Source of the DNA: a virus
Length of the DNA stretch: 64,000 nt
IMG/VR virus record: IMGVR_UViG_3300034060_000182
Span: 1-64,000 of that record
Strand: one strand, 5' to 3'
Position numbers and translations under genes: made by a program. Shown in pieces: positions 3,992 to 62,045 of the stretch (its first letter is position 1; each line of letters starts with the position of its first letter). Under the pieces are notes generated by a model. It was not told the DNA's origin. It saw only the letters and a list, made by a program, of their open reading frames with translations, and made no database searches.

Positions 3992-4040
3992 AATTAAAGG
4001 GTTTAAAGGGTTAAATAATAATTACCAATACGGTAACTTT

Positions 4041-4108
4041 GAGGATAAGATGGAATCGAACCATCGACGTAACTCCGTTGTCAATAACGTCATAACCATA
4101 TTTATCCG
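4041..4108 (-). tRNA. tRNA-like element, identity unresolved
   Basis: The minus strand has a perfect T-arm, GATGG-TTCGATT-CCATC, followed by a 3' acceptor strand (TTATCCT plus C) that pairs in six of seven positions with CGGATAA at the 5' end. The element is only about 68 nt. The D-arm is not convincing and the anticodon arm (CGTT-ATTGAC-AACG) has a 6-nt loop, so no anticodon can be assigned. It may be a divergent tRNA, a tRNA remnant or a tRNA mimic. Confidence 0.5.
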
Positions 4109-4140
4109 CCGCACTATGTCAAAGTGTGTATAGCAAGTCG

Positions 4141-4554: not shown

Positions 4555-4743
4555 TTACTTTCTACGCCACGACTTGTGAACCGCCGCACTTAATTCTTGA
4601 CTTACAATCTGAATTGTATTACCTGTTTTATGTTCTATAATAGGTATATAACTATATGTTTTCATAGTTGAACAGTTTACACATGTCTTATAACCTAACT
4701 CTATCCTAACAGGATGCATTTGACTTCCACATCTACAGTACAT
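4555..4743 (-). CDS. Zinc-ribbon protein (62 aa)
   Basis: The start chosen is the ATG at 4741-4743 (MYCRCGSQMHPVRIELGYKT). A longer frame back to 4764 would begin inside the transcription-start region of the promoter at 4760-4798, so it is rejected. CxC near the N-terminus and CVNC 16 residues later form a four-Cys zinc ribbon; the C-terminus is basic (HKSWRRK). Small zinc ribbons of this kind bind nucleic acid or RNA polymerase in other phages, but no target is implied here. It is the first gene after the promoter. Confidence 0.7.
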   Translation of the reverse strand: MYCRCGSQMHPVRIELGYKTCVNCSTMKTYSYIPIIEHKTGNTIQIVSQELSAAVHKSWRRK

Positions 4744-4759
4744 AATGTTTGTTTTTAAA

Positions 4760-4798
4760 TTCAAATATATTATCTCACTATTTTATTAATAAGTCCGT
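4760..4798 (-). promoter_or_regulatory. Bipartite phage promoter P1
   Basis: Minus strand: ACGGACTTA, 15 bp, GATAATATAT, 2 bp, GAA. It is one of six copies with identical spacing. It is positioned to transcribe the zinc-ribbon gene at 4555-4743 with a leader of roughly 15 nt. The upstream box lies inside the last codons of the upstream gene (4778-4927). Confidence 0.85.
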
Positions 4799-4927
4799 AA
4801 GGCATTTAGGGAATTCTTCTAATCTATATAATTCAATTATCACTTGCTGTTGGTACATAGTTAAAGAATCATAATTTACTTCGAAATACTCTTTAGATAA
4901 GGAATCTAAACTTGCCATTATACTCAT
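4778..4927 (-). CDS. Small hypothetical protein (49 aa) overlapping a promoter
   Basis: A 49-residue frame, MSIMASLDSLSKEYFEVNYD..., ending CLTDLLIK and TAG. Its 3' end runs through the ACGGACTTA box and spacer of promoter P1, so the C-terminal residues are constrained by, or simply read through, a promoter. Helical, no motif. It lies just downstream of the tRNA. Confidence 0.55.
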   Translation of the reverse strand: MSIMASLDSLSKEYFEVNYDSLTMYQQQVIIELYRLEEFPKCLTDLLIK

Positions 4928-4948
4928 ATCTATATATTTTAAAGTTAG

Positions 4949-5014
4949 TAGTCAGGCGAGGACTCGAACCTTATCCACTTTATCAGCGTGGCGCTTCCAT
5001 TCAGCTACCTGACT
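4949..5014 (-). tRNA. tRNA-Ile (GAT), compact
   Basis: The seven-base acceptor stem AGTCAGG/CCTGACT pairs perfectly. A short D-arm with AATGGAA follows, then an anticodon arm CCACG-CTGATAA-AGTGG with four of five pairs and anticodon GAT, then TTCGAGT as the T-loop on a partly paired stem. At about 66 nt it is shorter than usual because the D-loop and variable region are reduced. A hairpin at 5032-5050 lies just upstream. Confidence 0.75.
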
Positions 5015-5031
5015 CCTTAGTAAGAGGCTTT

Positions 5032-5050
5032 ACCAAGCAAAACACTTGGT
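5032..5050 (-). other. Hairpin between CDS and tRNA
   Basis: A perfect 6-bp stem ACCAAG/CTTGGT with a 7-nt loop lies between the stop of the 165-residue gene and the tRNA. There is no T-run after it, so it is more likely an RNA processing or mRNA 3'-end stabilising structure than a terminator. Confidence 0.5.
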
Positions 5051-5057
5051 TACATTA

Positions 5058-5555
5058 CTAATTTCTTCTTAAATCTCTCATTAAATCGCTAAACAAAGCG
5101 TGTATAGCAGCCATTTCTGGCATGTCATCATTAGCAGTTTGTTTTGACTTAAGAGGTTTAATCCATTTACCATTTTTAAACACCTTGATGTTATGATAAA
5201 AGAAATGATATTCACCTTCAAAACTTAATAACTCATGCTCTTGATATTCTGAAGTATGTGGGTTCTTATCTAGTATAAGACCATGTTTAGTATTGACGCC
5301 AATAGCAAACCCACGTCTTTCAGCTTCCGCAACGAACTCCGCTAATTTAGCATCGTCTTCTGCCGAATTCCTGTTCTCGTCTATATCGTCCCAAAACCTT
5401 TGGCCTTCAGGTGCTTCACGCCAACTAAAAGCCATTGCTAGCGAAAGATCTTCTTCAACGCATCTAAGAGTATCTAATGGACCTCTTTGTTTTAGCATGT
5501 TTAATACTACTTTTTCTTTGTGCTCATTTGGCACTTGACTAATTCTAATTCCCAT
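5058..5555 (-). CDS. Conserved phage protein of unknown function (165 aa)
   Basis: The start chosen is the ATG at 5553-5555 (MGIRISQVPNEHKEKVVLNM), which avoids overlap with the upstream gene; an ATG at 5600 would add 15 residues and overlap it. The segment FSWREAPEGQRFWDDI resembles a short motif seen in many phage unknowns. The second half (HELLSFEGEYHFFYHNIKVF) is beta-rich. Soluble, no catalytic signature visible. Confidence 0.7.
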   Translation of the reverse strand: MGIRISQVPNEHKEKVVLNMLKQRGPLDTLRCVEEDLSLAMAFSWREAPEGQRFWDDIDENRNSAEDDAKLAEFVAEAERRGFAIGVNTKHGLILDKNPHTSEYQEHELLSFEGEYHFFYHNIKVFKNGKWIKPLKSKQTANDDMPEMAAIHALFSDLMRDLRRN

Positions 5556-5586
5556 GATAATATAATTTAAAGTTAATGATACAAAT

Positions 5587-5811
5587 TTATTCTTCGCCAC
5601 GTCTTACGTGTCTATGATTCCACAATCTAGTACAAGAGAATTTCTTGCTTTTACTGAATGTAGACTTCTGCCTAATTATTGTACTGTTGTATTCTCTGTT
5701 TGTTAAACCGCTACACTTTTTCTCGTTAGCGTTATTAACTAGATGTTGATCTATTCTTTGTCTACGAATATTATTACAATACTGCATAGCTACTATTGCT
5801 GCTGCTTCCAT
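5587..5811 (-). CDS. Basic hypothetical protein (74 aa)
   Basis: A 74-residue, strongly basic protein (many Arg/Lys, three Cys, C-terminal RLWNHRHVRRGEE). It may bind nucleic acid, but no fold is recognisable. It starts 2 bp after the upstream gene. Confidence 0.55.
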   Translation of the reverse strand: MEAAAIVAMQYCNNIRRQRIDQHLVNNANEKKCSGLTNREYNSTIIRQKSTFSKSKKFSCTRLWNHRHVRRGEE

Positions 5812-5813
5812 AT

Positions 5814-5981
5814 TTAATTATTTATTTCTAAGTTCAATTCACTAGTGGTCATATATTCTACGTGTCTCATATCAAAGTTATCTGTAATATAATCTTCTAC
5901 ATATTCTTCAATATCTAAACCATCTGGTATCTTATGTATTAATACCTTGCCATCACGGTAATCTAATATACTTAAATACAT
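5814..5981 (-). CDS. Hypothetical protein (55 aa)
   Basis: The start chosen is the ATG at 5979-5981 (MYLSILDYRDGKVLIHKIPD), because it falls 2 bp after the stop of the upstream 32-residue gene; the longer frame from 6002 would overlap that gene. Acidic (DIEEYVEDYITDNF). Function unknown. Confidence 0.6.
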   Translation of the reverse strand: MYLSILDYRDGKVLIHKIPDGLDIEEYVEDYITDNFDMRHVEYMTTSELNLEINN

Positions 5982-5983
5982 AG

Positions 5984-6082
5984 TTATGTTCTTTGCACCC
6001 ACGCTGCTGCGTTAGCTAAGTCTTTAAATACTACTTTGAACTTGAATAATAATACACTAATAATGTTTGCTTGCTTCTTCAT
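5984..6082 (-). CDS. Very small protein (32 aa)
   Basis: A 32-residue frame, MKKQANIISVLLFKFKVVFK..., with an amphipathic, partly hydrophobic N-terminal segment and the ending DLANAAAWVQRT. It fills the gap between two genes with a TAA-CT-ATG junction on its downstream side. Possibly membrane-associated. Supported mainly by its tight fit in the operon. Confidence 0.45.
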   Translation of the reverse strand: MKKQANIISVLLFKFKVVFKDLANAAAWVQRT

Positions 6083-6093
6083 AATTTAATTGT

Positions 6094-6255
6094 TTAAAGG
6101 GTTATTTCTTCTACTATTTCATTGTAATCTCTTAATATTTCTTCTATTGTAAAAGAGTCTAGGTATTCCATTATCTCTATTACATCTGACTCATATATCT
6201 TATTATGAAACAGACAAAAGTTTATTGCTAATGTTATTAAATACTGTTTAGTCAT
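6094..6255 (-). CDS. Small acidic helical protein (53 aa)
   Basis: A 53-residue frame, MTKQYLITLAINFCLFHNKI..., with an acidic helical C-terminus (IEEILRDYNEIVEEITL). It overlaps the upstream 59-residue gene by 8 bp. No family recognised. Confidence 0.55.
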   Translation of the reverse strand: MTKQYLITLAINFCLFHNKIYESDVIEIMEYLDSFTIEEILRDYNEIVEEITL

Positions 6256-6427
6256 TGTACACTATATTAATTAATTCTTCTAATATAACACTTCTATCAT
6301 AGTTTGTTTTCCAAGTACATTGAGTGTAAATATACTCTGATATTTCTCTGACTACCTGGTCTCTGCTTCCACCACATTTGATGAAAGCCTTGAAACCATC
6401 GATAGCATCATTAACTTGTTGACTCAT
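6248..6427 (-). CDS. Small hypothetical protein (59 aa)
   Basis: A 59-residue frame, MSQQVNDAIDGFKAFIKCGG..., helical, two Cys. The ATG at 6425-6427 lies 1 bp after the stop of the 68-residue gene and the end overlaps the next start by 8 bp, so it is part of the unit driven by promoter P2. Function unknown. Confidence 0.55.
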   Translation of the reverse strand: MSQQVNDAIDGFKAFIKCGGSRDQVVREISEYIYTQCTWKTNYDRSVILEELINIVYND

Positions 6428-6428
6428 A

Positions 6429-6635
6429 TTACCAACCAGTTTTTAAATCATCTTCTAGTATGAAAGTCCAACCTTTGTGGTTAAACCATGAGGTTATACC
6501 TTCTTGCTCTTTATCTTCGTTATAAATGAAGGCAAATCTTTGTGGTAGATTACCAATTAAAAAACCACGGTATTCTCTTTTATTCAACCATATAGTTGAA
6601 CCTCGTCTTTTGTAAGTTTGAACTGTTGTTGACAT
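6429..6635 (-). CDS. Hypothetical protein (68 aa), first gene after promoter P2
   Basis: A 68-residue basic/aromatic protein: STTVQTYKRRGSTIWLNKRE at the start, then WFNHKGWTFILEDDLKTGW. It looks beta-rich. The ATG lies 37 bp below the GAA of promoter P2. Early host-takeover proteins of phages often have this size and position, but nothing in the sequence states a target. Confidence 0.65.
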   Translation of the reverse strand: MSTTVQTYKRRGSTIWLNKREYRGFLIGNLPQRFAFIYNEDKEQEGITSWFNHKGWTFILEDDLKTGW

Positions 6636-6672
6636 AGTAAATAGGTATTAAAGATTAATGTTATAATTTAAT

Positions 6673-6711
6673 TTCGAATATATTATCACACTATAATATT
6701 ATTAAGTCCGT
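6673..6711 (-). promoter_or_regulatory. Bipartite phage promoter P2
   Basis: Minus strand ACGGACTTA, 15 bp, GATAATATAT, TC, GAA. Same boxes and spacing as the other five copies. It drives the 68-residue gene and probably the chain of small genes below it to about 5587. Confidence 0.85.
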
Positions 6712-6840
6712 ATAGATAATCTAGTTAGTTCTAAGGTGTGAAAATGTTTATTAGAACAAAACAGTTGAGAGGTATATTACTACATCTCTCATCATCTCTA
6801 TGCACTTTTAACCACAATATTGGTAGTATGAACGTTTAAT
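6712..6840 (-). ncRNA. Candidate short RNA downstream of promoter P3 (no clear gene)
   Basis: Promoter P3 points into this 129-bp stretch, but the only minus-strand frames are tiny (14 to 25 residues) and the next promoter begins directly afterwards. The stretch contains an imperfect stem of TGAGAG and CTCTCA arms (plus strand 6767-6792) and CCA-CAATAT-TGG at 6812-6823. It may be a small regulatory RNA, a leader, or a decayed cassette. Parts resemble the control region at 8590-8815. Confidence 0.35.
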
Positions 6841-6879
6841 TTCATATATATTATCTGAAGTGAAACAAAATAAGTCCGT
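6841..6879 (-). promoter_or_regulatory. Bipartite phage promoter P3
   Basis: Minus strand ACGGACTTA, 15 bp, GATAATATAT, AT, GAA, preceded by TGCTATACACTTC. A full match to the consensus, but with no evident gene immediately downstream. Confidence 0.85.
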
Positions 6880-7021
6880 GAAGTGTATAGCAAAAGCTAC
6901 TAAACAGGAAATAATGGCACAACAAAGTCGTTAATTTAAAAACTGTGACATTAGGGTCTTATATTATATAGTAACAGGCTATTGTCACACTTTTGTAGTG
7001 CTTACTATTGCTTCAAAAAGA

Positions 7022-7048
7022 TAAAAAAAAAGACCACCGAAGTGGCCT
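7022..7048 (-). terminator. Rho-independent terminator with UUCG loop
   Basis: Minus strand AGGCCAC-TTCG-GTGGTCT followed by about nine T. It lies 10 bp past the stop of the gene at 7059 and has a textbook shape. Confidence 0.92.
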
Positions 7049-7058
7049 TATTTAATAA

Positions 7059-7352
7059 TTATACCAATGTTGGTAAATTTCTTACGAAGACTGGTAAATC
7101 TTTCGAGTTAGTATAACTTCCATACTTGTCGAAGCAAGGCATTAAGTCAAATTTTGCTCGCAAAGCGTTATAAACTAAGTCGTGGTTGTAAACTTTCAAC
7201 TCGTTCTTATGATTAGTAAAACTTATAACAGTATTACTTCCAATTAATGACTTGCGAATAACAAATCTTTTTGTAGTTAATTGATTTGTAGTTGATACTA
7301 CTGCAGGAGCTGCCACTGGCGCTACAACTGCACTTGATTTTTTTGTTGACAT
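7059..7352 (-). CDS. Early small protein, paralogue of the gene at 8054 (97 aa)
   Basis: The start chosen is the ATG at 7350-7352 (MSTKKSSAVVAPVAAPAVVS), which matches the start of its paralogue; an upstream in-frame ATG at 7388 would lie in the promoter P4 start region. The N-terminus is Ala/Val-rich and variable. From LTTKRFVIRKSLIG onward it is closely similar to the 88-residue protein at 8054, including MPCF-KYGSYTN. It has its own promoter and terminator. Basic (TKRFVIRK), possibly nucleic-acid or protein binding; function unknown. Confidence 0.75.
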   Translation of the reverse strand: MSTKKSSAVVAPVAAPAVVSTTNQLTTKRFVIRKSLIGSNTVISFTNHKNELKVYNHDLVYNALRAKFDLMPCFDKYGSYTNSKDLPVFVRNLPTLV

Positions 7353-7390
7353 AGTATAAAATATTAAAATTATAAAGATTAAAATCAATC

Positions 7391-7429
7391 TTCGTATATA
7401 TTATCAATAATAAAATGTCGTAAGTCCGT
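7391..7429 (-). promoter_or_regulatory. Bipartite phage promoter P4
   Basis: Minus strand TGTATAGCACTTC then ACGGACTTA, 15 bp, GATAATATAT, AC, GAA. It sits about 40 bp above the ATG of the 97-residue protein. Confidence 0.87.
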
Positions 7430-7510
7430 GAAGTGCTATACATAATGGACCTTAAAACTAGCTTTAGCAACTAAAGTCGGCTCTGCCTGCCCATTCCACC
7501 AATAGGTAGA

Positions 7511-7534
7511 GTAAAAAACCCTATTTCTAGGGCT
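7511..7534 (-). terminator. Rho-independent terminator
   Basis: Minus strand CCCTA-GAAA-TAGGG with a GNRA-type loop followed by TTTTTT. It ends the single-gene unit of the 74-residue protein at 7543. Confidence 0.85.
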
Positions 7535-7542
7535 TTATTTAG

Positions 7543-7767
7543 TTATATGTCATAATACTTATCTACTACAGATCCTAAGAACTCTAGTGTTGCATCTGGT
7601 GCTGTAAATTCAACTAAACTGTTATCAGAGTTAGATATTGTAGCATCAAATGATGCTGTTATAACTCTCACTAACACATCATCTTCATAGATAAATGTAT
7701 TTGTGCCATCTGTGTATTCTGTGTACACTGTGCCAGATTCTTTGCTGACTGCTTTAAGTAATTTCAT
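7543..7767 (-). CDS. Early small acidic protein (74 aa)
   Basis: A 74-residue acidic protein, MKLLKAVSKESGTVYTEYTD..., apparently all-beta in the first half (TYTEYTDGTNTFIYEDDVLV) with Asp/Glu throughout. It forms a one-gene unit between promoter P5 and the terminator at 7511. The charge would suit a DNA-mimic or inhibitor role, but that is speculation. No family recognised. Confidence 0.7.
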   Translation of the reverse strand: MKLLKAVSKESGTVYTEYTDGTNTFIYEDDVLVRVITASFDATISNSDNSLVEFTAPDATLEFLGSVVDKYYDI

Positions 7768-7782
7768 AAGATATAATTTAAT

Positions 7783-7821
7783 TTCAAATATATTATCCTA
7801 ATAGAAAACTTGTAAGTCCGT
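7783..7821 (-). promoter_or_regulatory. Bipartite phage promoter P5
   Basis: Minus strand TGTATAGCACTCC then ACGGACTTA, 15 bp, GATAATATAT, TT, GAA, 15 bp before the start of the 74-residue gene. Confidence 0.87.
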
Positions 7822-7844
7822 GGAGTGCTATACACATTAATGCT

Positions 7845-7869
7845 AAAAAAAGACCACATATAGTGGCCT
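7845..7869 (-). terminator. Rho-independent terminator
   Basis: Minus strand AGGCCAC-TATAT-GTGGTCT followed by TTTTTTT. The stem is the same as in the terminator at 7022, so this cassette part is repeated. It ends the unit of the 88- and 33-residue genes. Confidence 0.9.
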
Positions 7870-7889
7870 TGTTTAGTTGTTATGATATG

Positions 7890-7991
7890 TTACACTGACA
7901 TCATGAATTGTAACGCGAAGTATACTCCGATGTATAATGCAAGTACTATTAGCGGTTTGATCTGATTGATTGTATTAGATATGTGTCTCAT
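7890..7991 (-). CDS. Single-pass membrane miniprotein (33 aa)
   Basis: A 33-residue frame, MRHISNTINQIKPLIVLALY, continuing IGVYFALQFMMSV: a short basic head followed by one strong transmembrane helix, expected N-in. It lies 62 bp below the 88-residue gene and 21 bp above the terminator, so it closes that transcription unit. Comparable phage miniproteins act on the host membrane or as superinfection or lysis modulators; the role here is unknown. Confidence 0.6.
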   Translation of the reverse strand: MRHISNTINQIKPLIVLALYIGVYFALQFMMSV

Positions 7992-8053
7992 GATTATATG
8001 ATTTAGTTAGATTAATAAAATAAGCAGTTTAACGATTTGCTTAGATCGATGCA

Positions 8054-8320
8054 TTATACTATTTCTTTTAAAGCTCTTACGAATGCTGGCAGATTATTAG
8101 TATTAGTATAACTACCGTATTTAGCGAAGCATGGCATTGCATCAAACTTAGCTTTTAATTGGTCATATACTTTATCATGATTGTATATGCATTCAACATT
8201 CTTATTGTTCATGAATGTTATTACTGTATTAGTTCCAATCAGCGATTTTCTGATTACGAATCTTTTAGTAGTTAATGCTACTTGTGGTGCTGCTGCTGCA
8301 GCTGCTGTTGATTTTGACAT
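8054..8320 (-). CDS. Early small protein, paralogue of the gene at 7059 (88 aa)
   Basis: An 88-residue protein with an Ala-rich N-terminus (STAAAAAAPQVA) followed by the conserved block LTTKRFVIRKSLIGTNTVIT and MPCFAKYGSYTN shared with the protein at 7059. It is the first gene below promoter P6. The two copies in neighbouring promoter-terminator cassettes show a local duplication. Function unknown. Confidence 0.75.
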   Translation of the reverse strand: MSKSTAAAAAAPQVALTTKRFVIRKSLIGTNTVITFMNNKNVECIYNHDKVYDQLKAKFDAMPCFAKYGSYTNTNNLPAFVRALKEIV

Positions 8321-8356
8321 AGTTATTAAATTAAATTATAAAGATCTTAATTAATC

Positions 8357-8395
8357 TTCATATATATTATCAACATCATATTCTTGTAAGTCCGT
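8357..8395 (-). promoter_or_regulatory. Bipartite phage promoter P6
   Basis: Minus strand ACGGACTTA, 15 bp, GATAATATAT, AT, GAA, 36 bp above the start of the 88-residue gene. It is the rightmost of the six copies. Confidence 0.87.
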
Positions 8396-8671
8396 GAACA
8401 TAACATCTTATTAAGATCGTAGTAACTCCGTGCGAGTGCTATACATACGCATAAGGTAAAAGCTAAATCCTATTACGACATCACGCACGTATGACTCACA
8501 TCATCAACCCAAAAGCTAAAAAGTTGGGGGACCCGGCAAAATGAAAAGCGTTTTCCTTTTCGAAAATAAAAATAGAAATTAGGTAGTAACACAATAATTC
8601 TCTACATCTCATCAAATTCACCCAGGCCCAAAAAATTTTTTTTAATATTTTTTTTACAACGCATAATATTA

Positions 8672-18447: not shown

Positions 18448-18460
18448 AAGTTACAAAAAA

Positions 18461-18473
18461 CGAGTGATATATA
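18461..18473 (+). promoter_or_regulatory. CGAGTGATATATA element before the chaperonin operon
   Basis: Thirteen bases matching the element at 22101 (CGTGTGATATATA) in 12 of 13 positions, 28 bp before groEL. It may be a promoter or leader element of the plus-strand block. Confidence 0.4.
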
Positions 18474-18500
18474 CAATATATAAATTTAATCAAATAAAAA

Positions 18501-20045
18501 ATGTCAGAAGCAATAGTTAAAAATCTAAGTTTCGGTACCGAAGCTAGTGAGAAAGTATTTGAAGGAATAAAGAAACTAACAATGGCTGTTAGTTCAACAC
18601 TAGGTGCTAGTGGTAAGTGTGTTCTTTTAGAAGATCAGTTTGGAAAACCAGTTATAACAAAAGATGGTGTTACAGTAGCTGACTCTATAATTCTATTAGA
18701 TCCTGTTGAAAACATGGGAGCAACACTATTAAAAGAAGCTGCTAGAAAAACAGTAAGAGAAGCAGGTGATGGTACAACTACCGCGACTGTTCTTGCTCAT
18801 GCTATTTTAAAGAACGCTTATGCTGTTGAAAATCCAAATGCTAGAAAAATTAAAGAAGGTATAAACAAAGCTGTTGATAAAGTTATAAAATACCTTGAAG
18901 ACATATCTATAACCGTAGAAGGTGATATGTTAGATCAAATTGCAACTATATCAACTAATAACGACCCGGAACTAGGTAAGTTAGTTGGAGATGCTTTTAG
19001 ATCTGTAGGAAACACAGGGATAGTTATGATGGAAACATCTGCTGATCCAGAGTGTAGTCTACAAGTAGTTGAAGGAGTTCAATGTGATATGGGATTAACA
19101 AACTCTCATTTCATTACTAATCAAAAAAACAAGACGGCAGAACTAGATAATCCATTAGTATTACTAATAGAATCTCCAGTAGATAGTATAAGACAGATAC
19201 AGTCTGTTTTAGAATACGTGATAAAAAATAATAAATCATTGCTTATAATTGCAGATTTAGACCAAGTGGTTTTATCTACATTAGCTATGAATAAATCAAA
19301 AGGTAACATAAAGGTAAACGTTATAAACGCTCCTACTTTTGGTGTTAATAGAAAAGAAATATTTGATGATTTAGCTTTGTTAACTGGAGCTACTTTAATC
19401 AACGAAGATCTAGGAGATGACTTAGATTTAATACAACCAGAATTACTAGGTACTTGTTTAAAGAGTATTACTAATCATGAAGAAACAATACTTCACGTGG
19501 AAGAGAGTTCTGAAGAAATATTAAATATTATAGATGATATTAAAAAATCATTACTAGAAAAGAATAGTAGTAATACTGTTATTAAACTAGAAAAAAGATT
19601 AGCACGTTTAACAGCTAAGATTGCTGTTGTAAAAGTTGGTGCTAATTCTGAGATAGAACTAAAAGAAAAAGCAGATAGAATAGAAGATGCAATCTGTGCT
19701 ACAAAAGCTGCTATTAAAGAAGGTATTGTGCCAGGTGGAGGAATCGCTTTATTAAACGCTGCTCATAGTATAGATAGTTTTTCTGATGGTGAAGAAATAT
19801 TACTAAATTCAATTAGAGCACCTTTTAATACAATATTAGATAACGCTGGAATAGAATATGCACCATTAGAATCATTTTCAAAGATTGGATATGGTCTTGA
19901 TGTAATAACAGGTAAAACTGTTAACATGATTGATGCAGGAATTATTGACCCTTTATTAGTTACTAAAAGTGCTTTAAGAAACGCTGCTTCTGTAGCTACT
20001 ACCATATTATCAACTGATTGTGTAATTAATAATTTAAGAGCATAA
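18501..20045 (+). CDS. groEL: Phage chaperonin GroEL (Cpn60)
   Basis: 514 residues, slightly shorter than cellular GroEL (about 545). ATPase residues are kept: D55 in ITKDG, D90 in GDGTTTATVL, and D396 in IEDAICATKAA followed by GGGIALLNAA. The C-terminal equatorial part (NMIDAGIIDPLLVTKSALRN) is also clear. The apical domain is divergent and shortened, and the Gly-Gly-Met tail is missing. It forms an operon with a GroES gene (TAATG overlap). It should assemble a folding chamber, perhaps for virion proteins or to replace host chaperonin. It is plainly homologous to GroEL, not a remnant. Confidence 0.96.
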   Translation: MSEAIVKNLSFGTEASEKVFEGIKKLTMAVSSTLGASGKCVLLEDQFGKPVITKDGVTVADSIILLDPVENMGATLLKEAARKTVREAGDGTTTATVLAHAILKNAYAVENPNARKIKEGINKAVDKVIKYLEDISITVEGDMLDQIATISTNNDPELGKLVGDAFRSVGNTGIVMMETSADPECSLQVVEGVQCDMGLTNSHFITNQKNKTAELDNPLVLLIESPVDSIRQIQSVLEYVIKNNKSLLIIADLDQVVLSTLAMNKSKGNIKVNVINAPTFGVNRKEIFDDLALLTGATLINEDLGDDLDLIQPELLGTCLKSITNHEETILHVEESSEEILNIIDDIKKSLLEKNSSNTVIKLEKRLARLTAKIAVVKVGANSEIELKEKADRIEDAICATKAAIKEGIVPGGGIALLNAAHSIDSFSDGEEILLNSIRAPFNTILDNAGIEYAPLESFSKIGYGLDVITGKTVNMIDAGIIDPLLVTKSALRNAASVATTILSTDCVINNLRA

Positions 20046-22098: not shown

Positions 22099-22100
22099 TA

Positions 22101-22113
22101 CGTGTGATATATA
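22101..22113 (+). promoter_or_regulatory. CGTGTGATATATA element
   Basis: Closely matches the element at 18461 and the start of that at 8787. It lies 33 bp before the gene for the secreted protein, in one of the few real gaps of this block. Confidence 0.4.
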
Positions 22114-22145
22114 TATTAATACTAATCTAATTAAATACATACACT

Positions 22146-22490
22146 ATGAGAAATTTATTTATTATTACAATGTTAGCTTTTTCTTTATTTTCTAACGCTC
22201 AGAAAATTACACCTAAATTTTTAGAAGGAACTTGGGAAACAGAATTCCACAATGTTGAATTTAAAATATTAGATAAAAAAGAAATTAAAATAACAATAAC
22301 TTTAAAAGATTCTAACGAAGAAGTTAAAGTAGTTAGATACAAAATACATGATAACGCTCTATACTTTGAAACTTATTATGCTAAAAATAACTGGAAATCT
22401 ACAAATAAATTAGTAACAATGGACGATAACACTATGGTTGCCGATGTTTTTTCAGATTCTAGGGATATATTAATTTACGAAAGAAAATAA
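22146..22490 (+). CDS. Secreted protein, lipocalin-like appearance (114 aa)
   Basis: 114 residues with a classical signal peptide (MRNLFIITMLAFSLFSNA, cut before QK), of the style seen in Bacteroidota exported proteins. The mature part begins PKFLEGTWETEFHNVEFKIL, where a G-T-W near the start followed by alternating beta strands suggests a small calycin-like barrel. A host-derived periplasmic protein, or one acting in superinfection exclusion, would fit. It has its own gap and a promoter-like element upstream. Confidence 0.65.
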   Translation: MRNLFIITMLAFSLFSNAQKITPKFLEGTWETEFHNVEFKILDKKEIKITITLKDSNEEVKVVRYKIHDNALYFETYYAKNNWKSTNKLVTMDDNTMVADVFSDSRDILIYERK

Positions 22491-23210: not shown

Positions 23211-23450
23211 ATGAAAAATATATCTACAAAAGGTTATAAAAGAAATAGTCCAGATAAAGACAACTCTTATAATATTATACCGAGCGGAGATATAACTATG
23301 GAAGATGTAGATTTTCCAGTATTAGGCATAGACAATAAAGGAAATAAAAAAGTAATGAAACCAGGAAGCAATTATAAGTTTCCTGGTGACGTTGTTTTAG
23401 AGGTACCAATGAAAAAACAAAGTTTATACAACAAAATATTTAAAAAATAG
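23211..23450 (+). CDS. Small hypothetical protein (79 aa)
   Basis: 79 residues. The first half is polar and disordered, the second has short strands (EDVDFPVLGIDNKGNKKVMK). It directly abuts the stop of the preceding gene. Its TAG stop touches the tRNA: the final G is the first base of the predicted tRNA acceptor stem. Confidence 0.55.
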   Translation: MKNISTKGYKRNSPDKDNSYNIIPSGDITMEDVDFPVLGIDNKGNKKVMKPGSNYKFPGDVVLEVPMKKQSLYNKIFKK

Positions 23451-23521
23451 CAGGTGGGAGGTAAGGTATCTCACGAGTCTCATAAGCTCGCTTAAACTGG
23501 TTCGACTCCAGTACGTTGCTA
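23450..23521 (+). tRNA. tRNA with CAT anticodon (tRNA-Met or lysidine-type Ile)
   Basis: D-arm GAG-GTAAGGTAT-CTC, anticodon arm CGAGT-CTCATAA-GCTCG with anticodon CAT, 5-nt variable loop, and T-arm ACTGG-TTCGACT-CCAGT are all good. The acceptor stem is weak: only the outer four pairs (GCAG with TTGC, one wobble) form. It lacks the GGG/CCC anticodon stem of initiator tRNAs. CAT could decode Met or, if lysidine-modified, Ile AUA. Confidence 0.65.
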
Positions 23522-23549
23522 CTAATACTAATAATTAAATTAAATAAAA

Positions 23550-38200: not shown

Positions 38201-40444
38201 TTAATATCTGACTTAAATGCTGAAGTCTTAACTGGCTTTTCAGGACCTACTGGTTTTGCAGATTTTGAATATCTTCATTTTGAAAACCAAGATCCTGATG
38301 GTACAGATCTTAACGTAAACAACTTTGGACAATCAGATTCAAAATATATAACAAGTCAATTTGTACCAATTGGTCAACAAGGTTTTCCTTTTGCTAATAC
38401 AACGGTTACGTTGTTAGAAGTCGTAGATGATGCGGGTAATATTAGAACATCTGAATTTGGTATAGAAGCAGGTACTTCTGGTGGAAACGATGTATATAGA
38501 TTGTTTATAGATTATACACCAACACCTGATAGTAATCCTTTTGTTTTTAATAACACAGCAAATACTGTTCAAAATTATACCTTTTCGTTTTTTGTTACAA
38601 ACATAGCTGAACCTTCAACGGCAACTACTTTAACAATGAAAGGCAGATTAAGTAATATTGCACCAACTATAACAACATCAATCGTTAATTATAGTATAAC
38701 GCAAAATACAACGGCGTTCGCTACATTAGAAGCTAAAAACGGTTCTTTTCATGCACCTTCTCAGCCAGTTCCAACCTATGCAAAATCTAATTTAAAATGG
38801 AGCATAGAAAGTGGTAACACTGGAAACTATTTTACAATAAACCCATATACTGGCGTTTTAAGTTTACAAAACTCTTCAGTCCCTTTAAGTGTATATAACT
38901 TAACTATAAGAGTACAAGATGCTATTAATACAACCAATGGAAGCTCATTACAACCTGAAAATACCACATTTGGAACTCTTTATAACGACATTGAGCTTAC
39001 CGTTAACGTAGGTGACGCTCCGATGCCATATTGGTTAAGACCTAATTATATTAGTTCAAATGTATATAGTTCTGGTTCATGTGGTGGTTCTGGAAGTAGT
39101 TTTGCAAACTCCTATGGTATGGCTTATATAGGTAAAAATCCAAACCCATCAAATGTTTATCTTCCTGAAATTCCAGGTTCTAATAGTAATTACTTAGTAA
39201 TTGAGAATGTAGAATCAGTTAATGCGGCAACATTTGGTGAAAACAATATTATACCAGACGGCTTGGATCAAGGTGAATATAGATTTAAAATAAAATTAAC
39301 AGTTAATGCAATTCCAATATGTCCTGCTGGTCCTGATGATCCAACTACTAATTTTGCCAATTCAAGAGGAGAAGTTGAAATATATTTGTATAAAAGAAAA
39401 TGGAATCCATCAGCTCCTTTCTCTTGGCAACTGGTAAATAACGAAAATAATTTTGGAATACCTAATCCTCCAACTGTGCCTTCTTACAAAATAGGACCTT
39501 TAGTAGTAAATACAGCTTATGATGAATTTACTGGTCAAACAACCTATGGACAACCAAAATCTCTTACAACTTCTTTTACTATTGAAGCAGAAGACGAATT
39601 GCAAGAATATGCTGTTGGTGTTAGATTATTAGGCGCTTATCAAAGTGGGTTTGGATCTAGTGGACAAACTGTTACTTTCTTTGGAAATGACGCAAACTAT
39701 TCTTATCCACAAGTACAACCGTTTTCTCCAGCTCAAACTAACGATTATAAATATTACACAGGAGTAGAAACAATAACAGGTGATACAACAGGTGTACCTT
39801 ACGATACACTAGATGCAATTAGAGGAATTATTTATAATTCACCTACAAACTCAGTAGCGTCTGGAACAGTTACTTTGGGAGATATACCAGTTAGTCTTAC
39901 ATTGTCCAGCGTTAATAGTCAAATAGTAGCTGGTCTTAAATGTCAATTAACAAGTACTGCAAATCCAGGGTTTCCTTTTTCAGGTACTATAACTTATGTT
40001 GATCCAATTAATCCACTTCAAATACTTTTACAATTAGATTATGGTTGGCCATACGCTGGAACAACTAATTTAGTTAATTTAGGTGTTTCAACACAAGGTT
40101 CAAACGAAGCGATTGGTGTGTTGTATGCGAATACAGAAGAAGGTACTGAGATAAAAAGACTTTATGTAGATGAAAATTTCACAACAAAATGGATTCCACC
40201 AGTAGCAGACAAGTATTATAATTTTTTAACAGAAAAAAGTTACAACACTTATCAAACAGGATTTTATAGTGAATTTCCATTCTACTGTGCTCTTATAGAT
40301 GAAAATGGTGAGGTAACGCCTAGACAAGCACCAATTCCAAACGTACAAACAGCTTGGATTGGACAAAACACAGCAAATACATTGCCTATTGACATTGCAA
40401 ATTATAGTTACAACGTGTTGTATGAGAACCAACCTGTTCCGTAA
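35279..40444 (+). CDS. P22 gp10-like tail hub protein with cadherin-like domain (1721 aa)
   Basis: 1721 residues. The N-terminus (FLKSKMNQDLDDRLLPNGEY then DIGTLQNVLGNEKL) is the recognisable start of gp10-like tail hub/stabilisation proteins that close the portal channel. About residues 330-465 continue that family (EIDILYKESDSLAVKVFETI; ESAGNRIIYGNYYDKYTSLS). The long middle is beta-rich. About 1135-1250 a cadherin-type repeat is visible (YFTINPYTGVLSLQ ... TIRVQDAINT). The missing C-terminal part of the gp10-like family appears to be encoded by the next gene, so the two products may act as one complex. Surface or virion role. Confidence 0.75.
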   Translation: MAEVKNSFLKSKMNQDLDDRLLPNGEYRSALNISVGKSETDDIGTLQNVLGNEKLPLTDYDNPDLECIGVFMDNQNNCIYQFLTDYNDDEPSKITPPTSGTMMITMYDLNGAGTYSVLVEGLFLNFAKNKEFKVTGINLIEGLLFWTDNRNQPRKINVNKALSSSSYYTTEEQISVAKYAPVDPISLYRKVTAKVSSVTSTTVFNVPIGTSISKGMTVISDDISGSEYITVTDYNIATGAVTLYKAPLNNISTDEVLTFLISTMSDKSDVPSWPGDPAFLEDKYVRFSYRFKYDDNEYSLMAPFTQIAYVPKQKGFFIDGNETDAYRSTVINWFENNVNNIDLIVPLPDKIGNLSNSYKIQEIDILYKESDSLAVKVFETIPVSSINTTINTNNNYYVQPYQSQKPYKTLPEDQTTRVYDKVPVRAKAQESAGNRIIYGNYYDKYTSLSSINYNVSVQPKSDIETSFIEYPNHTLKKNRNYQVGFVIADKFGRQSPVILSSVDLTGALIGDGTYAKGSTVYSSYEDTTLFTDVRSWFGDALILYLNAPIDQLRDIPTGQPGLYAIPKSSSGFAITASTITNTTYTFTLDPPAVGGTNTIPLPGDIMRGFYTDYVKVTNVSPTPTIPYSGSYVVTTDGRVNDIYLYTPQLGGVKDIKFSYEYNPIGWYSYKIVVKQQEQDYYNVYLPGMLNGYPKNQTSGSQVVYSTTGSTTTPTLQNGINTTQFPVSETGNTSHIVLINDNINKVPRDLSEVGPDQKQYRSSVQLYGRVENTKDNLTITGNDPAFSAKVTTIRYSTLTAGNEDWIFIKPGDGIQCVQANEPVPNTPPLGGTQPSPYRWLGNTVVVSNVVVGTAGTITISSPNWVLKSSISNPDYVTFIITRAENRQYFPTRKADTVISIAYADEFNFIDSSEDNLSGTAGLNFYQLQNKPLIGRVSTVNDIGVVASDMIPFLSVYETRPEQSLLEIFWETASTGLISDLNAEVLTGFSGPTGFADFEYLHFENQDPDGTDLNVNNFGQSDSKYITSQFVPIGQQGFPFANTTVTLLEVVDDAGNIRTSEFGIEAGTSGGNDVYRLFIDYTPTPDSNPFVFNNTANTVQNYTFSFFVTNIAEPSTATTLTMKGRLSNIAPTITTSIVNYSITQNTTAFATLEAKNGSFHAPSQPVPTYAKSNLKWSIESGNTGNYFTINPYTGVLSLQNSSVPLSVYNLTIRVQDAINTTNGSSLQPENTTFGTLYNDIELTVNVGDAPMPYWLRPNYISSNVYSSGSCGGSGSSFANSYGMAYIGKNPNPSNVYLPEIPGSNSNYLVIENVESVNAATFGENNIIPDGLDQGEYRFKIKLTVNAIPICPAGPDDPTTNFANSRGEVEIYLYKRKWNPSAPFSWQLVNNENNFGIPNPPTVPSYKIGPLVVNTAYDEFTGQTTYGQPKSLTTSFTIEAEDELQEYAVGVRLLGAYQSGFGSSGQTVTFFGNDANYSYPQVQPFSPAQTNDYKYYTGVETITGDTTGVPYDTLDAIRGIIYNSPTNSVASGTVTLGDIPVSLTLSSVNSQIVAGLKCQLTSTANPGFPFSGTITYVDPINPLQILLQLDYGWPYAGTTNLVNLGVSTQGSNEAIGVLYANTEEGTEIKRLYVDENFTTKWIPPVADKYYNFLTEKSYNTYQTGFYSEFPFYCALIDENGEVTPRQAPIPNVQTAWIGQNTANTLPIDIANYSYNVLYENQPVP

Positions 40445-40480
40445 CATAAAACACTATAGTTAAACTAAAAACACTAAAAA

Positions 40481-40493
40481 ACAAGTGATTATA
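40481..40493 (+). promoter_or_regulatory. ACAAGTGATTATA leader element
   Basis: Resembles the CGTGTGATATATA elements at 18461 and 22101, and lies immediately before the start of the gene at 40498. Because it sits at the start codon it may act in translation, not transcription. Confidence 0.25.
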
Positions 40494-40497
40494 AAAT

Positions 40498-42039
40498 ATG
40501 GCTGCAATATTAGAATTAAAATACTTTAACTCTTTCTGGTTAAAGAAACTAGATACAATAGTAGAGGTTGAAAAAGCAACGGCTAACTTAGTTACAGCCG
40601 TTGTTAATTCACCTAACTTAGAAATAACAACTCCTAATGGTGACATTGGAGTAGGACAACTTGTTACTTATGAAAACCAAGACGAAAGCGATGGTCCATA
40701 TTGGATATACAAAATAACAAACTCCACGAATATAGTATTAAATGAACCTGTTAATATAGCTGTTACTGATAAAATTACTTTTGGTAAAATAGTTAATTTT
40801 GATTATATTCCAGCTGCTTACACTGCTACTCCTTTAACAGATTGGTATGTAGAAGAAGCTAGAATACGAGGTGGTTATAATAACACAAATGTAGATCTTG
40901 GCGTTAAAGCTTATATAGTTGAAGATAATATTAATCAACAACATCGAAAAAGTTCGTTAATACATTCTGGTGTTTTTAACTCTAGAACAGGTATAAACCA
41001 AACAAACCAATTTTCTGTTGGTGAAGATATAACTAGAAGTTTAGATCCATATAATGGTTCTATTCAAAAATTATATTCAGAAGACACTAACTTAACTGTT
41101 TTTCAAGAGTTCAAAGTAAGTAGAGCTTTAATAGATAAAGACGCTATTTACTCAGCGGAAGGTCAACCAATGACTACTTCTGGAACACAGGTTATTGGAC
41201 AGATTCAAGCTTATTCTGGTAACTATGGTATAGGTACTAATCCAGAAAGTTTTGCAGTTTATGGTTATAGAAAATACTTTGTTGATAGAAACAGAAACGC
41301 TGTATTAAGACTATCACAAGATGGTATAACAGAAATATCCGAATATGGAATGATTGATTTCTTTAGAGATAATTTATCACTAATAGGTAACGATGGTTTT
41401 ATATTAGGTTTTTGGGACATGCATAATAAACAATATGTTGTATCATTGCAACCTACAGATACAGAAGAATACAATACTCTTTCTTTTGATGAAGACGTTA
41501 ATGGTTGGACTAGTTTCTTTAATTATAAACCAAACTTTGGAGACAGTTTAAGAAACAACATGTATACTTTTAAAAATGGTAATATATGGCAACATTATTC
41601 AAACACATCAAACTGGGGTAGTTTTTATAACTTCGACTATGATTCATCAGTTAACCTAGTATTAAATCCAAATGTTTCTACAATAAAAACATTTAAAACA
41701 TTAAACTACGAAGGTAGTGATGGTTGGGAGATGGAATATCTTTACACAGATACAGATACTTCTGCTTCTATACTAAAATCAACAACTAATCAAGTTTTCA
41801 CATTAGAAGATTTAGAACAACAGTTATTTGTAAATTCTTTCAAAAGAAAAGAAAACAAATATTTTTCTAACCTTATAAATATAACTCCTTCTGCTAGCAC
41901 GGAAGTTCTTTGGGGAAATTCAGTTGCTGGAGTAAAAGGAGCTTATGCCACGGTAAGAATGAAATATTCTAATCTTAGTAATTCTTCAAAAGCAGAGTTA
42001 TATGCTGTATCTTCAGAATATGTAGAATCTTCTTATTAA
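40498..42039 (+). CDS. Tail hub protein, second part of the gp10-like family
   Basis: 513 residues. Includes FNSRTGINQTNQFSVGEDIT, SIQKLYSEDTNLTVFQEFKV, GYRKYFVDRNRNAVLRLSQD and GWTSFFNYKPNFGDSLRNNM, a series that in related phages I associate with the C-terminal half of the long gp10-like hub protein. Here it starts 53 bp after that gene's stop, with its own ATG. A split of one ancestral gene, or an insertion-driven separation, is likely. Confidence 0.72.
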   Translation: MAAILELKYFNSFWLKKLDTIVEVEKATANLVTAVVNSPNLEITTPNGDIGVGQLVTYENQDESDGPYWIYKITNSTNIVLNEPVNIAVTDKITFGKIVNFDYIPAAYTATPLTDWYVEEARIRGGYNNTNVDLGVKAYIVEDNINQQHRKSSLIHSGVFNSRTGINQTNQFSVGEDITRSLDPYNGSIQKLYSEDTNLTVFQEFKVSRALIDKDAIYSAEGQPMTTSGTQVIGQIQAYSGNYGIGTNPESFAVYGYRKYFVDRNRNAVLRLSQDGITEISEYGMIDFFRDNLSLIGNDGFILGFWDMHNKQYVVSLQPTDTEEYNTLSFDEDVNGWTSFFNYKPNFGDSLRNNMYTFKNGNIWQHYSNTSNWGSFYNFDYDSSVNLVLNPNVSTIKTFKTLNYEGSDGWEMEYLYTDTDTSASILKSTTNQVFTLEDLEQQLFVNSFKRKENKYFSNLINITPSASTEVLWGNSVAGVKGAYATVRMKYSNLSNSSKAELYAVSSEYVESSY

Positions 42040-45010: not shown

Positions 45011-48000
45011 ATGGAAGAAATATATACTTTACCTGATGGTTCAACTGTAGACATATCTAGTTATTCTCAGTTTCAAAAGACTCTTTTTTTAATGAACAAT
45101 GCTGGAGCAAAAAAGTCGAAAGGTACTGCGAAAAGTGCGAACGCATTACCTACGAAGAAAGCACAGAATCAGGAGTTTCAAAAAGTTACGGAAGAGCATC
45201 GTCAAAAAATGGGTACGGTGTCCAAATCGGGAAGTGGTTCTTCGGGTTCAAAGAAATATAGACTACTTACAGAAGCAGATGTAGACAAAGCAAGAAAAAA
45301 AGGCGTATTGCCTCCTCCTTCTACTATACGTTTTTCTGAAGGAGAGTTAAACGCAGATAGTTATGAATATGACTTCAAAGGAAATCTAAGTAAGAAATTA
45401 AACAAACCTTTACCAGAATATAAATACGGTAAAGATTATAAACCTAAACACGAAGAAACGAGAGAAGTTTACTTAGCTAACAAGGATAATATAAGTGTAA
45501 AAATAGATAAAAAACTAAATACTGAAACCGAGTATGAAACAAATCGTGTTGATGTAAATGGAGTGCCAGATCCGTTTTTAAATGACTTAAAAATAAGACA
45601 ATTAGAAAGAGAGAAAGCTAAAACAGATTCTGCTTTAGAACATCCTTATTTATATTATTCTTCTTACAATCAAGAAAAACCAGATTCTTTTGTTAAAGAT
45701 AATTTTAACGAAATGGAATTAGAGGATCTTGGTATAAATGCTCAGGACTTTGATGGTTTCTTAAACAAGAATAAATACAAAGAAGATTTTTTAGATAAAG
45801 AACAAAGAGGTTTATTTACAAAAGGAACTGGTGTTGCTGGATATGATGTAGAATTAGCTAAAGAATTACAGAAGAAAAAGTTACTTACTTTATACATGTC
45901 TAATATTCAAAGTAGAGATATTACTAGACAAACTATCAATCAAGATATTGAAATAACTAAAGGACTTAGAGACAAGAGAGATATAAAAGAAAACGTTATA
46001 TTTGATAGTAACAAGTTAATAAATTACGTTGAAAAGAATTTTCCTATATATACTCAAAAGTTAAAAGAAAGCGAAGCAAAAAGCAGAAAAATATACGAAG
46101 AAGCTAAAACAGGTGGAACAGACTTTTGGAGTTGGGACACTGGTGCTAAAATGACAAACGCTACTTGGAATGGTTTTACAAACAGAGTGCATCAATTTAG
46201 TGCCACCGTTTACGACAAAATAGGCATGAAAGATGTTGCAGAATATTCTAGATTCATGGCGGATCAAGATGCTGTAGAAACTCCAGACGACAGATCTGTA
46301 GGATATGTTGGTGGTAAAGAAACTTATGTTGATGGTAAAAAATATTTAGTTAGTTCTAAAGGAGATGTTTACGATGCTGATTTAAAAATACGAATAACAG
46401 ATATATTAGAACCTAAAAAGAGAGAAAAAATATATGAAAACTCTAAATATGGACAAAGTGGTTTTGTATTTAGTCCTCAAGGAGTAGCTATAGGAACATC
46501 TGCTGTAATAGGCGATATGATCTTACAAGCTGCTTTAACTAGAGGTGTAGGTGCTTTTGGTACAGTTGCTACTGAAACTAGATTAGCGTTAAGTGTTGCT
46601 GGAAAACAAACTCAAGCAAGTCAATTGTTTAATAGTGCTTCTTCTGCTTTAAAGATGATACCAATGAAAAGATCTACTGGATATGCAATGATTTCTCAAG
46701 GAGCATTAGGATATTCGCAAGGATTTGAAGAGACATTAAAAGCAGCTAGAGAAAATGGTATTAATGATAAGGAAGCGTTTGCTTTAGCTTCTAACGCTGC
46801 TCAAAGAATGGGTGCTTTATATGCCACAACAGGTGTAATAAATCCACAAACAAACGTTGTTGATAATTTATTCACTGCTAAAAACGTAGTAAAAAAAGCA
46901 ATAGAACAATACACTAAAACTGGTAAGAAAGGTTTTATTCAATCAATAGACGACGTAGTAAGAAATACACCTAGAAACTTAGTTGAATTTGCAGAAGAAG
47001 GTGGTAAAGAAGTTGTACAAGAGAATGTGCAACAAGTTGGTGAGATTGGTTTAAATAAATTAACAAATCAAGAAGCTGGTAAAAAAATACTTAATGAAGA
47101 ATATACTGCTAGTGATTTCATAAATACTTCTATATTATCTTTTATATCTTCTGGTTTAATATCTAAAGCAAAATTACCTGACTTTAAAGTAGAAGACAAT
47201 GATGTAAACGATTTAATTTCTTTAAGTAAATTAGCTCAAAATAAAAAACAATTCGTAAGTACAATAGATGGTTTAGTTGATAGCAAGGTATTTACCGTAG
47301 ATCAAGCTAATAACTTAAAAGCAGACGTAGATATTTATTCTAATAATATAAACAAACTACCTAAAGTTGTTCCTCCTTCTGCGGCGATGCCAATTATGAG
47401 GGAGTTGGACAATATTACTAAACTAGAAAACGAAAAGAAATCTACAGATAAAGCATTTCATTCTCAAATAGATAGAAAAATAGAAGAAGTTAGGTCAAAA
47501 ATGCTTGACATACAATATGAAGGTGAATTAAAAGAAAAAAATGAAGCTATATCAAGAGCTATAAAAAAAGGAATTGCTAAAGGTATTGAAATGCAAACTT
47601 TTTCTAATAGAGAAGAAGTAAAAAACTATTTAGTAAACGAAGTTGGAATGTCTAACGAAGATGCAGAACTTTATTATACTCAAACTGGTTTTGCTTTAAG
47701 TGCTGACACAATAAGAAAATATTCTAAAGATCCAAGTTCTATTTCAGACAACAAACAGATTATAGTTGTAAATGAGGGAGCTTCAAGAGACGCGGGTGTT
47801 ATACAACACGAATTTTTACATGGATTATTACAAAAAACATTAAAAGATAATCCTGAAGCACAAAAACTACTTGGAGTAGCTTTAAACGACGAACTTTTTA
47901 AAATACAAGACAACATAAATAAAAATAAACTTAAAGGAACTGTTGTTCCAGCGGAGTTTATGGAAAAAATGGAAAAATATTTTAAAAGAAATCAAGAAGA

Positions 48001-61819: not shown

Positions 61820-62045
61820 AATAGTAAATATAAAATTCGTACATTTTTTTCCATATTTCCATTTTCCTATAAGACTCTGGACTAATACTTGTTTTTTTAT
61901 TCATTTCAATACATATATACCATTCTAAAGTTGATTTTGCTAATGGAGATATATATATTCCATTTTTAATACACCAATCTCTTGCTTCTTTTTCTTTAGT
62001 AGAGTATAAGTAATTACCCATATCTATAACAGTTCTTTTTGCCAT
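61800..62045 (-). CDS. Hypothetical protein (81 aa)
   Basis: 81 residues, Tyr/Lys/Glu-rich and helical (YRKMEIWKKMYEFYIYYYEK). It overlaps the downstream nucleotide-modification gene by 20 bp and starts within the stop of the primase-helicase (TAATG). Probably a small regulator or partner of a neighbour; no motif. Confidence 0.6.
   Translation of the reverse strand: MAKRTVIDMGNYLYSTKEKEARDWCIKNGIYISPLAKSTLEWYICIEMNKKTSISPESYRKMEIWKKMYEFYIYYYEKYKK

Follow-up and report, generated by a model that had tools for sequence, protein, structure and literature searches.

The virus record IMGVR_UViG_3300034060_000182 carries a series of two-box repeats on the minus strand of its left arm, which raises the question of what reads them. 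The window analysed here comprises the first 64,000 nucleotides of this 68,048-bp record, and coordinates are those of the window unless marked as record positions. We conclude that the six copies in the window, together with a seventh beyond its end, are very probably promoters of a phage-encoded sigma factor acting on the host core polymerase.

The six copies of ACGGACTTA-N15-GATAATATAT-NN-GAA reported in the preliminary description are all exact and lie where it placed them, on the minus strand. P1 (8357-8395; -35 box 8387-8395, -10 box 8362-8371, predicted start G at 8359; 41.7 bits) precedes the open reading frame (ORF) at 8054-8320, and P2 (7783-7821; boxes 7813-7821 and 7788-7797, predicted start G at 7785; 52.6 bits) precedes the ORF at 7543-7767. 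P3 (7391-7429; boxes 7421-7429 and 7396-7405, predicted start G at 7393; 46.6 bits) lies before an ORF with its ATG at 7352, while P4 (6841-6879; boxes 6871-6879 and 6846-6855, predicted start G at 6843; 50.0 bits) is followed only by a leader. P5 (6673-6711; boxes 6703-6711 and 6678-6687, predicted start G at 6675; 47.5 bits) precedes the ORF at 6429-6635, and P6 (4760-4798; boxes 4790-4798 and 4765-4774, predicted start G at 4762; 47.6 bits) an ORF with its ATG at 4743. It had been noted that a gene starts just after five of the six copies; this is correct for this genome, the sixth being P4.

The motif is longer than first described, CTnCACGGACTTA-N15-GATAATATAT-n-Y-R-A-A, and its chance expectation was 0 in dinucleotide shuffles, even allowing 3 mismatches. 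Extending the search beyond the window, as had been proposed, revealed the seventh, weaker copy (record 67709-67742, minus strand), with 2 mismatches within the two boxes. A decayed copy, ACGGAGTTA-N15-GATGTTATGT (8398-8431, minus strand), lies directly upstream of P1 and is also present in the relative G010 (11.8 bits there). A scoring matrix trained on 74 sites from other phage lineages only gave 24.9-52.6 bits for the seven copies and 10.0 for the decayed one, all on the minus strand, against a maximum of 0.3 bits elsewhere in the genome, plus strand included, and of 1.3 in the reversed sequence. The motif is confined to the strand of the left (early/replication) arm, with none on the structural strand or in the structural module.

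The placement of the sites is that expected of promoters. The motif might have been equally frequent inside genes; instead, of 214 family sites 12% fall within ORFs, while coding sequence accounts for 75% of the strand, and the next start codon follows at a median distance of 25 bp. For these reasons, and judged by sequence and position, the sites are promoters. Within 60 bp of a start codon we found 78.5% of the family sites, compared with 11.9% of random positions. All six window copies have a sigma-70-type geometry, CGGACT-N17-GATAAT, corresponding to a 15-bp gap when the longer boxes are taken. In nearly all own-type sites a pyrimidine and a purine (YR) occupy columns 35 and 36, which fits positions -1 and +1 if GATAAT is the -10 element. 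Spacers are unrelated, while the boxes, the spacing and the YR start are conserved across lineages whose sigma factors are 54-71% identical.

A sigma-70-family protein and its distribution

The preliminary description suggested a phage-encoded or phage-modified polymerase and recommended looking for a sigma gene outside the window. Such a gene is present past the window end (record 65742-66524; L008:7743-8525; minus strand), encoding 260 amino acids and sitting 1.2 kb downstream of the seventh promoter copy. Its product matches Pfam Sigma70_r2 at 26 bits, above the curated cut-off of 24, and the PHROG 351 sigma factor family at 3e-15, and a ten-sequence profile of the family matches SigA, RpoD and FliA in the PDB. 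For region 4, the FliA and SigA profile matches reach residues 249-260 and helices 199-250 are modelled at high confidence, with no Pfam region 4 match. Foldseek matched a structure model built from 47 family sequences (predicted local distance difference test score, pLDDT, 78; 65 for an earlier, weaker model) to sigma A chains along its entire length (E 2.7e-6, probability 1.00). The structural support is this alignment; whole-chain template modelling (TM) scores are low (about 0.3), as expected of a flexible multi-domain protein under rigid-body superposition. Profile and structure matches together identify the protein as a sigma homologue. Relatives are encoded on at least 382 uncultured viral contigs in IMG/VR, while no record in the INPHARED phage collection has one at 1e-5, and at E values up to 10 only weak, RpoD-like similarity was detected there.

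The distribution of the motif matches that of the sigma gene, in support of the suggestion of a phage-modified polymerase. An exact search of IMG/VR for ACGGACTTA-N15-GATAAT returned 59 stretches. Nine near-complete records carry 4-8 copies, always on a single strand (G001, G002, G004, G006, G008, G009, G010, G012 and G022), and all nine encode the sigma factor (54-100% identical); in G021 two copies accompany the sigma gene. All sites in these multi-copy records and G021 are on the strand of the sigma gene, and nine genomes, this one among them, have one copy on that strand about 1.2-3.3 kb ahead of the gene. Other many-copy records lacking sigma, apart from one discussed below, are fragments, and single-copy matches in the unrelated records G015, G016, G018, G020, G023 and G024 were set aside as chance-like (2-3 mismatches). 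When loci were chosen by sigma alone and scored with the other-lineage matrix, 138 sites fell on the sigma strand, 1 on the opposite strand and 0 in reversed sequence; the -10 core GATAATATA[AT] occurred 344 times in sense and 12 times in antisense in 78 sigma-bearing loci. No motif match was found in five sigma-less relatives (MW202828.1, an Elemovirus, Cellulophaga phi38:1 and phi46:3, and Tenacibaculum Gundel_1), nor, at up to one mismatch, in 198 Bacteroidota genomes. The coupling between motif and sigma is strong in these genomes but is not phylogenetically independent.

We propose that the phage sigma would bind the core RNA polymerase of the Bacteroidota host and redirect it to early-arm genes. 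Its region 2 would read GATAAT, the -10 element within GATAATATAT, and its region 4 the 9-bp -35 box ACGGACTTA, the constant 15-bp gap reflecting the fixed distance between the two regions. With the standard geometry CGGACT-N17-GATAAT-N6-R, transcription is predicted to start at the conserved G after GATAATATATnn. The promoters would drive one- and two-gene cassettes as well as a long left-arm operon of replication, recombination and nucleotide genes. The operon containing the sigma gene has the seventh copy upstream of it, an arrangement suggesting that sigma boosts its own production. No such promoter occurs in the structural arm, which would have to be switched on otherwise.

Four observations weigh against this proposal. 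G017, a 59.5-kb record with 5 copies, shows no sigma gene; its array is close to a contig end, and the record may be incomplete. With terminase identities of 32-65%, the five sigma-less controls do not allow loss of sigma and of motif to be told apart from general divergence. The -35 box varies by clade, with ACAAACTAAATACGA in place of ACGGACTTA in other clades and GATAATATA unchanged, and the region 4.2 helix shows no simple change to match: a simple code from helix type to -35 box was rejected, as different helices share a similar box and no clean rule emerged. Finally, no clear host-type promoter was found from which the first sigma could be made.

Other readings of the sites

In one alternative, host polymerase with its own primary sigma would read the sites as early promoters, and the late, structural genes would be the task of the phage sigma. 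TAnnTTTG is the element read by flavobacterial sigma A, and the known alternative motifs differ (PMC9723704). The sites head an arm that looks early, and TATATnnG in the downstream box becomes TAnnTTTG when nn is TT, as it is exactly at 7783 and 4760. The element is not conserved, being exact and in register at 4 of 325 family sites and at none in G002, G006, G009 and G010. A bilingual promoter, with the two elements overlapping in TATATTTG, was on the same counts (2 of 6 here, 4 of 325 across the family) rejected as a conserved feature. The full host arrangement, TTG-N17-23-TAnnTTTG, occurs nowhere between genes of this record and 13 times overall, compared with 16.7 in Markov sequences. Intergenic TAnnTTTG is likewise not enriched in sigma-bearing phages (265 against 273 expected); it is enriched in the sigma-less MW202828 (17 against 3.9) and in the Elemovirus (20 against 5.8), and near expectation in phi38:1, phi46:3 and Gundel. 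With the motif also absent from the Bacteroidota genomes and the sigma-less relatives, and no common late-gene motif established as a target for the phage sigma, reading by the host primary sigma is improbable.

A bolder extension of the phage sigma proposal, which we regard as unlikely, is that host-type promoters have been almost wholly replaced in this lineage, with sigma present from the start of infection (for instance carried in the virion) or with promoters readable by both sigmas. If true, an injected sigma subunit would switch the host polymerase already at the entry stage.

A host alternative sigma was among the readers initially suggested; it could be of the extracytoplasmic function (ECF) or sigma 54 type, and Flavobacteria do have one sigma 54 and seven ECF sigmas (PMC9723704). 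The motifs reported for these (-24/-12, TAnnTTGY and a CGT box) are unlike GATAATATAT (PMC9723704), and the absence of the motif from all 198 Bacteroidota genomes argues against a host sigma, leaving this reading very improbable. Little more can be said for an RNA polymerase encoded by the phage itself, as in crAss-like or N4-like phages. A virion polymerase is known from crAss-like phages, and one protein here has a crAss muzzle domain; yet the large proteins scanned, which represent part of the ORFs, contain no polymerase domain or DxDGD motif, and two boxes at sigma-70 spacing are the signature of a sigma factor, so that we give this reading scarcely any weight. That the sites are binding or recombination sites spread through cassette duplication would accord with the similar proteins from two cassettes and the repeated units with terminators, but is hardly credible given unrelated spacers between boxes conserved across sigma lineages, with their spacing and YR start, and a promoter-like placement relative to start codons.

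Cassettes and other repeats in the left arm

By eye, the record starts and ends with the same ~150 bases and therefore probably represents a complete, circular assembly. From about 8.4 kb the left arm extends along the minus strand, across the record end and down to about 55 kb; it encodes small genes, the sigma factor, an ERF recombinase, a DUF3799 nuclease-like protein, a primase-helicase (62045-63766, minus strand, downstream of the sigma gene), thymidylate synthase, MazG and ribonucleotide reductase. GroEL, terminase, portal and the protein with the crAss muzzle domain are encoded in the structural arm, which is on the plus strand. A 3346-residue plus-strand product (45011-55051) matched nothing in Pfam, PHROG or the PDB.

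In the region from 8.4 to 6.4 kb, small minus-strand cassettes begin with the promoters, and two of them end in terminator-like hairpins. The first begins with an 88-residue ORF (8054-8320), which has no Pfam match and by eye resembles the product of 7059-7352, and ends in a hairpin at 7850-7870. The second contains a 74-residue ORF (7543-7767), and the third a 97-residue ORF (7059-7352, taking the ATG at 7352 as its start; 7059-7388 in the ORF list, from a TTG) and a hairpin at 7030-7049. P5 is followed by a 68-residue ORF (6429-6635), and P6 by a 63-residue ORF (4555-4743, taking the ATG at 4743 as its start; 4555-4764 in the ORF list, from a TTG). In G001 an 81-residue gene follows P4; this gene is missing here and in G006, with the leader kept. 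The leader (6712-6840, minus strand) is retained in G001, G006 and G010, its conserved parts being a ...GAGAG...ATAnACC(T/C)CTC... block and CTAATAAACATTTTAACACCTTA, and could be an RNA element. A transfer RNA (tRNA) gene at 4949-5014 (minus strand) was matched by Rfam and missed by ARAGORN, and further tRNA-like sequences were seen by eye near 4040-4130 (minus strand) and 23450-23530 (plus strand).

A block upstream of some promoters had been described for three copies. The block is present, but at four of the six window promoters, and TGTATAGCAC and TGCTATACAC are one element in two orientations. On the minus strand, TGTATAGCAC occurs upstream of the decayed copy (8436-8445), P2 (7825-7834) and P3 (7433-7442), and TGCTATACAC upstream of P4 (6883-6892). 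The element is also dispersed in its own right, beyond the promoters. A 9-mer, TGCTATACA, is found in 11 copies in this genome against 0.4 expected, dispersed in the left arm, and similarly in five relatives; sites include 1180-1188, 4126-4134, 5100-5108, 6883-6891 and 63362-63370 in the window, all on the minus strand, and record positions 65452-65460 and 66769-66777. Copies away from promoters, some of them within coding genes, are nearly always on the transcribed-sense strand; those beside promoters directly precede the -35 box and face either way. This genome, G001 and G002 share an identical GCTATACAC in their helix-turn-helix (HTH), ERF and primase genes, with variable flanking bases. 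TGCTATACA resembles mycobacteriophage stoperators, which are orientation-biased repressor sites (compare PMC9283540).

Two minus-strand copies of the inverted repeat TGTGACAATAG ... CTAATGTCACA, whose centre is AT-rich, were seen by eye, one upstream of P4 (6945-6990) and one overlapping the start of the gene for a 205-residue HTH protein (record about 67247-67292); the repeat is possibly the operator of that protein. In the structural arm, GTGATATATA or AACAAGTGAT occurs near some gene starts, including that of GroEL, and also in relatives (18448-18501, 22099-22146 and 40442-40498, plus strand); it is possibly a late signal, on weak evidence. As candidates for a late promoter motif, k-mer searches yielded mainly codon signals and weak GTGATATATA matches near a few starts, and established no such motif. 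In the early arm of the sigma-less MW202828.1 (L186, 43000-60850), the palindrome GTGTCGTTAACGACAC has 14 exact copies, 16 with variants; 6 of the 14 are inside ORFs, and none occurs in the rest of that genome.

Relation to known systems

Transcription control in Bacteroidota phages has been little studied, and the host primary sigma reads unusual promoters. The present phages provide hundreds of natural sigma-promoter variants from uncultured viruses, with a constant -10 and a clade-variable -35 element, so that a sigma-promoter code becomes testable in vitro and an orthogonal expression system for Bacteroidota conceivable. The signature is also searchable and links fragments of these abundant phages. 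A limited literature search found no paper on such a sigma-promoter pair in Bacteroidota phages.

The nearest phages compared, the uncultured MW202828.1, Elemovirus, Pachyviridae and Pervagoviridae, are related in terminase (64.5% to 32% identical) and infect Flavobacteriia where hosts are known; the members tested differ in having no detected sigma homologue (hmmsearch, with a positive control) and no motif. Terminase is at most 46% identical to that of named genera, and the phages described here likely form a separate lineage. As for Bacteroidota primary sigma promoters (TTG at about -33, TAnnTTTG at -7), TATATnnG can overlap the -7 box, but the conserved boxes are CGGACT-N17-GATAAT and TAnnTTTG is not conserved.

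The closest parallels come from other phage sigma factors. In Bacillus phage SPO1, the middle and late sigma factors gp28 and gp34 (PMC9429907) redirect host core polymerase to two-box phage promoters, as proposed here. The boxes differ, however, and the sigma described here has no detectable relation to annotated phage sigmas beyond weak RpoD-like matches, has relatives in Bacteroidota phages and has no late-gene sites. In phiEco32 and 7-11, middle promoters found by conservation precede the sigma gene of the phage itself and serve for its transcription (PMC4331800). Phage promoters likewise lie upstream of the sigma gene here, but sigma sequence and promoter are different, and neither clear host-type promoters nor an anti-sigma gene were identified. 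The principle of sigma-driven phage promoters is already known from SPO1 gp28 and the phiEco32 sigma; what is new is the sigma lineage and its promoter boxes.

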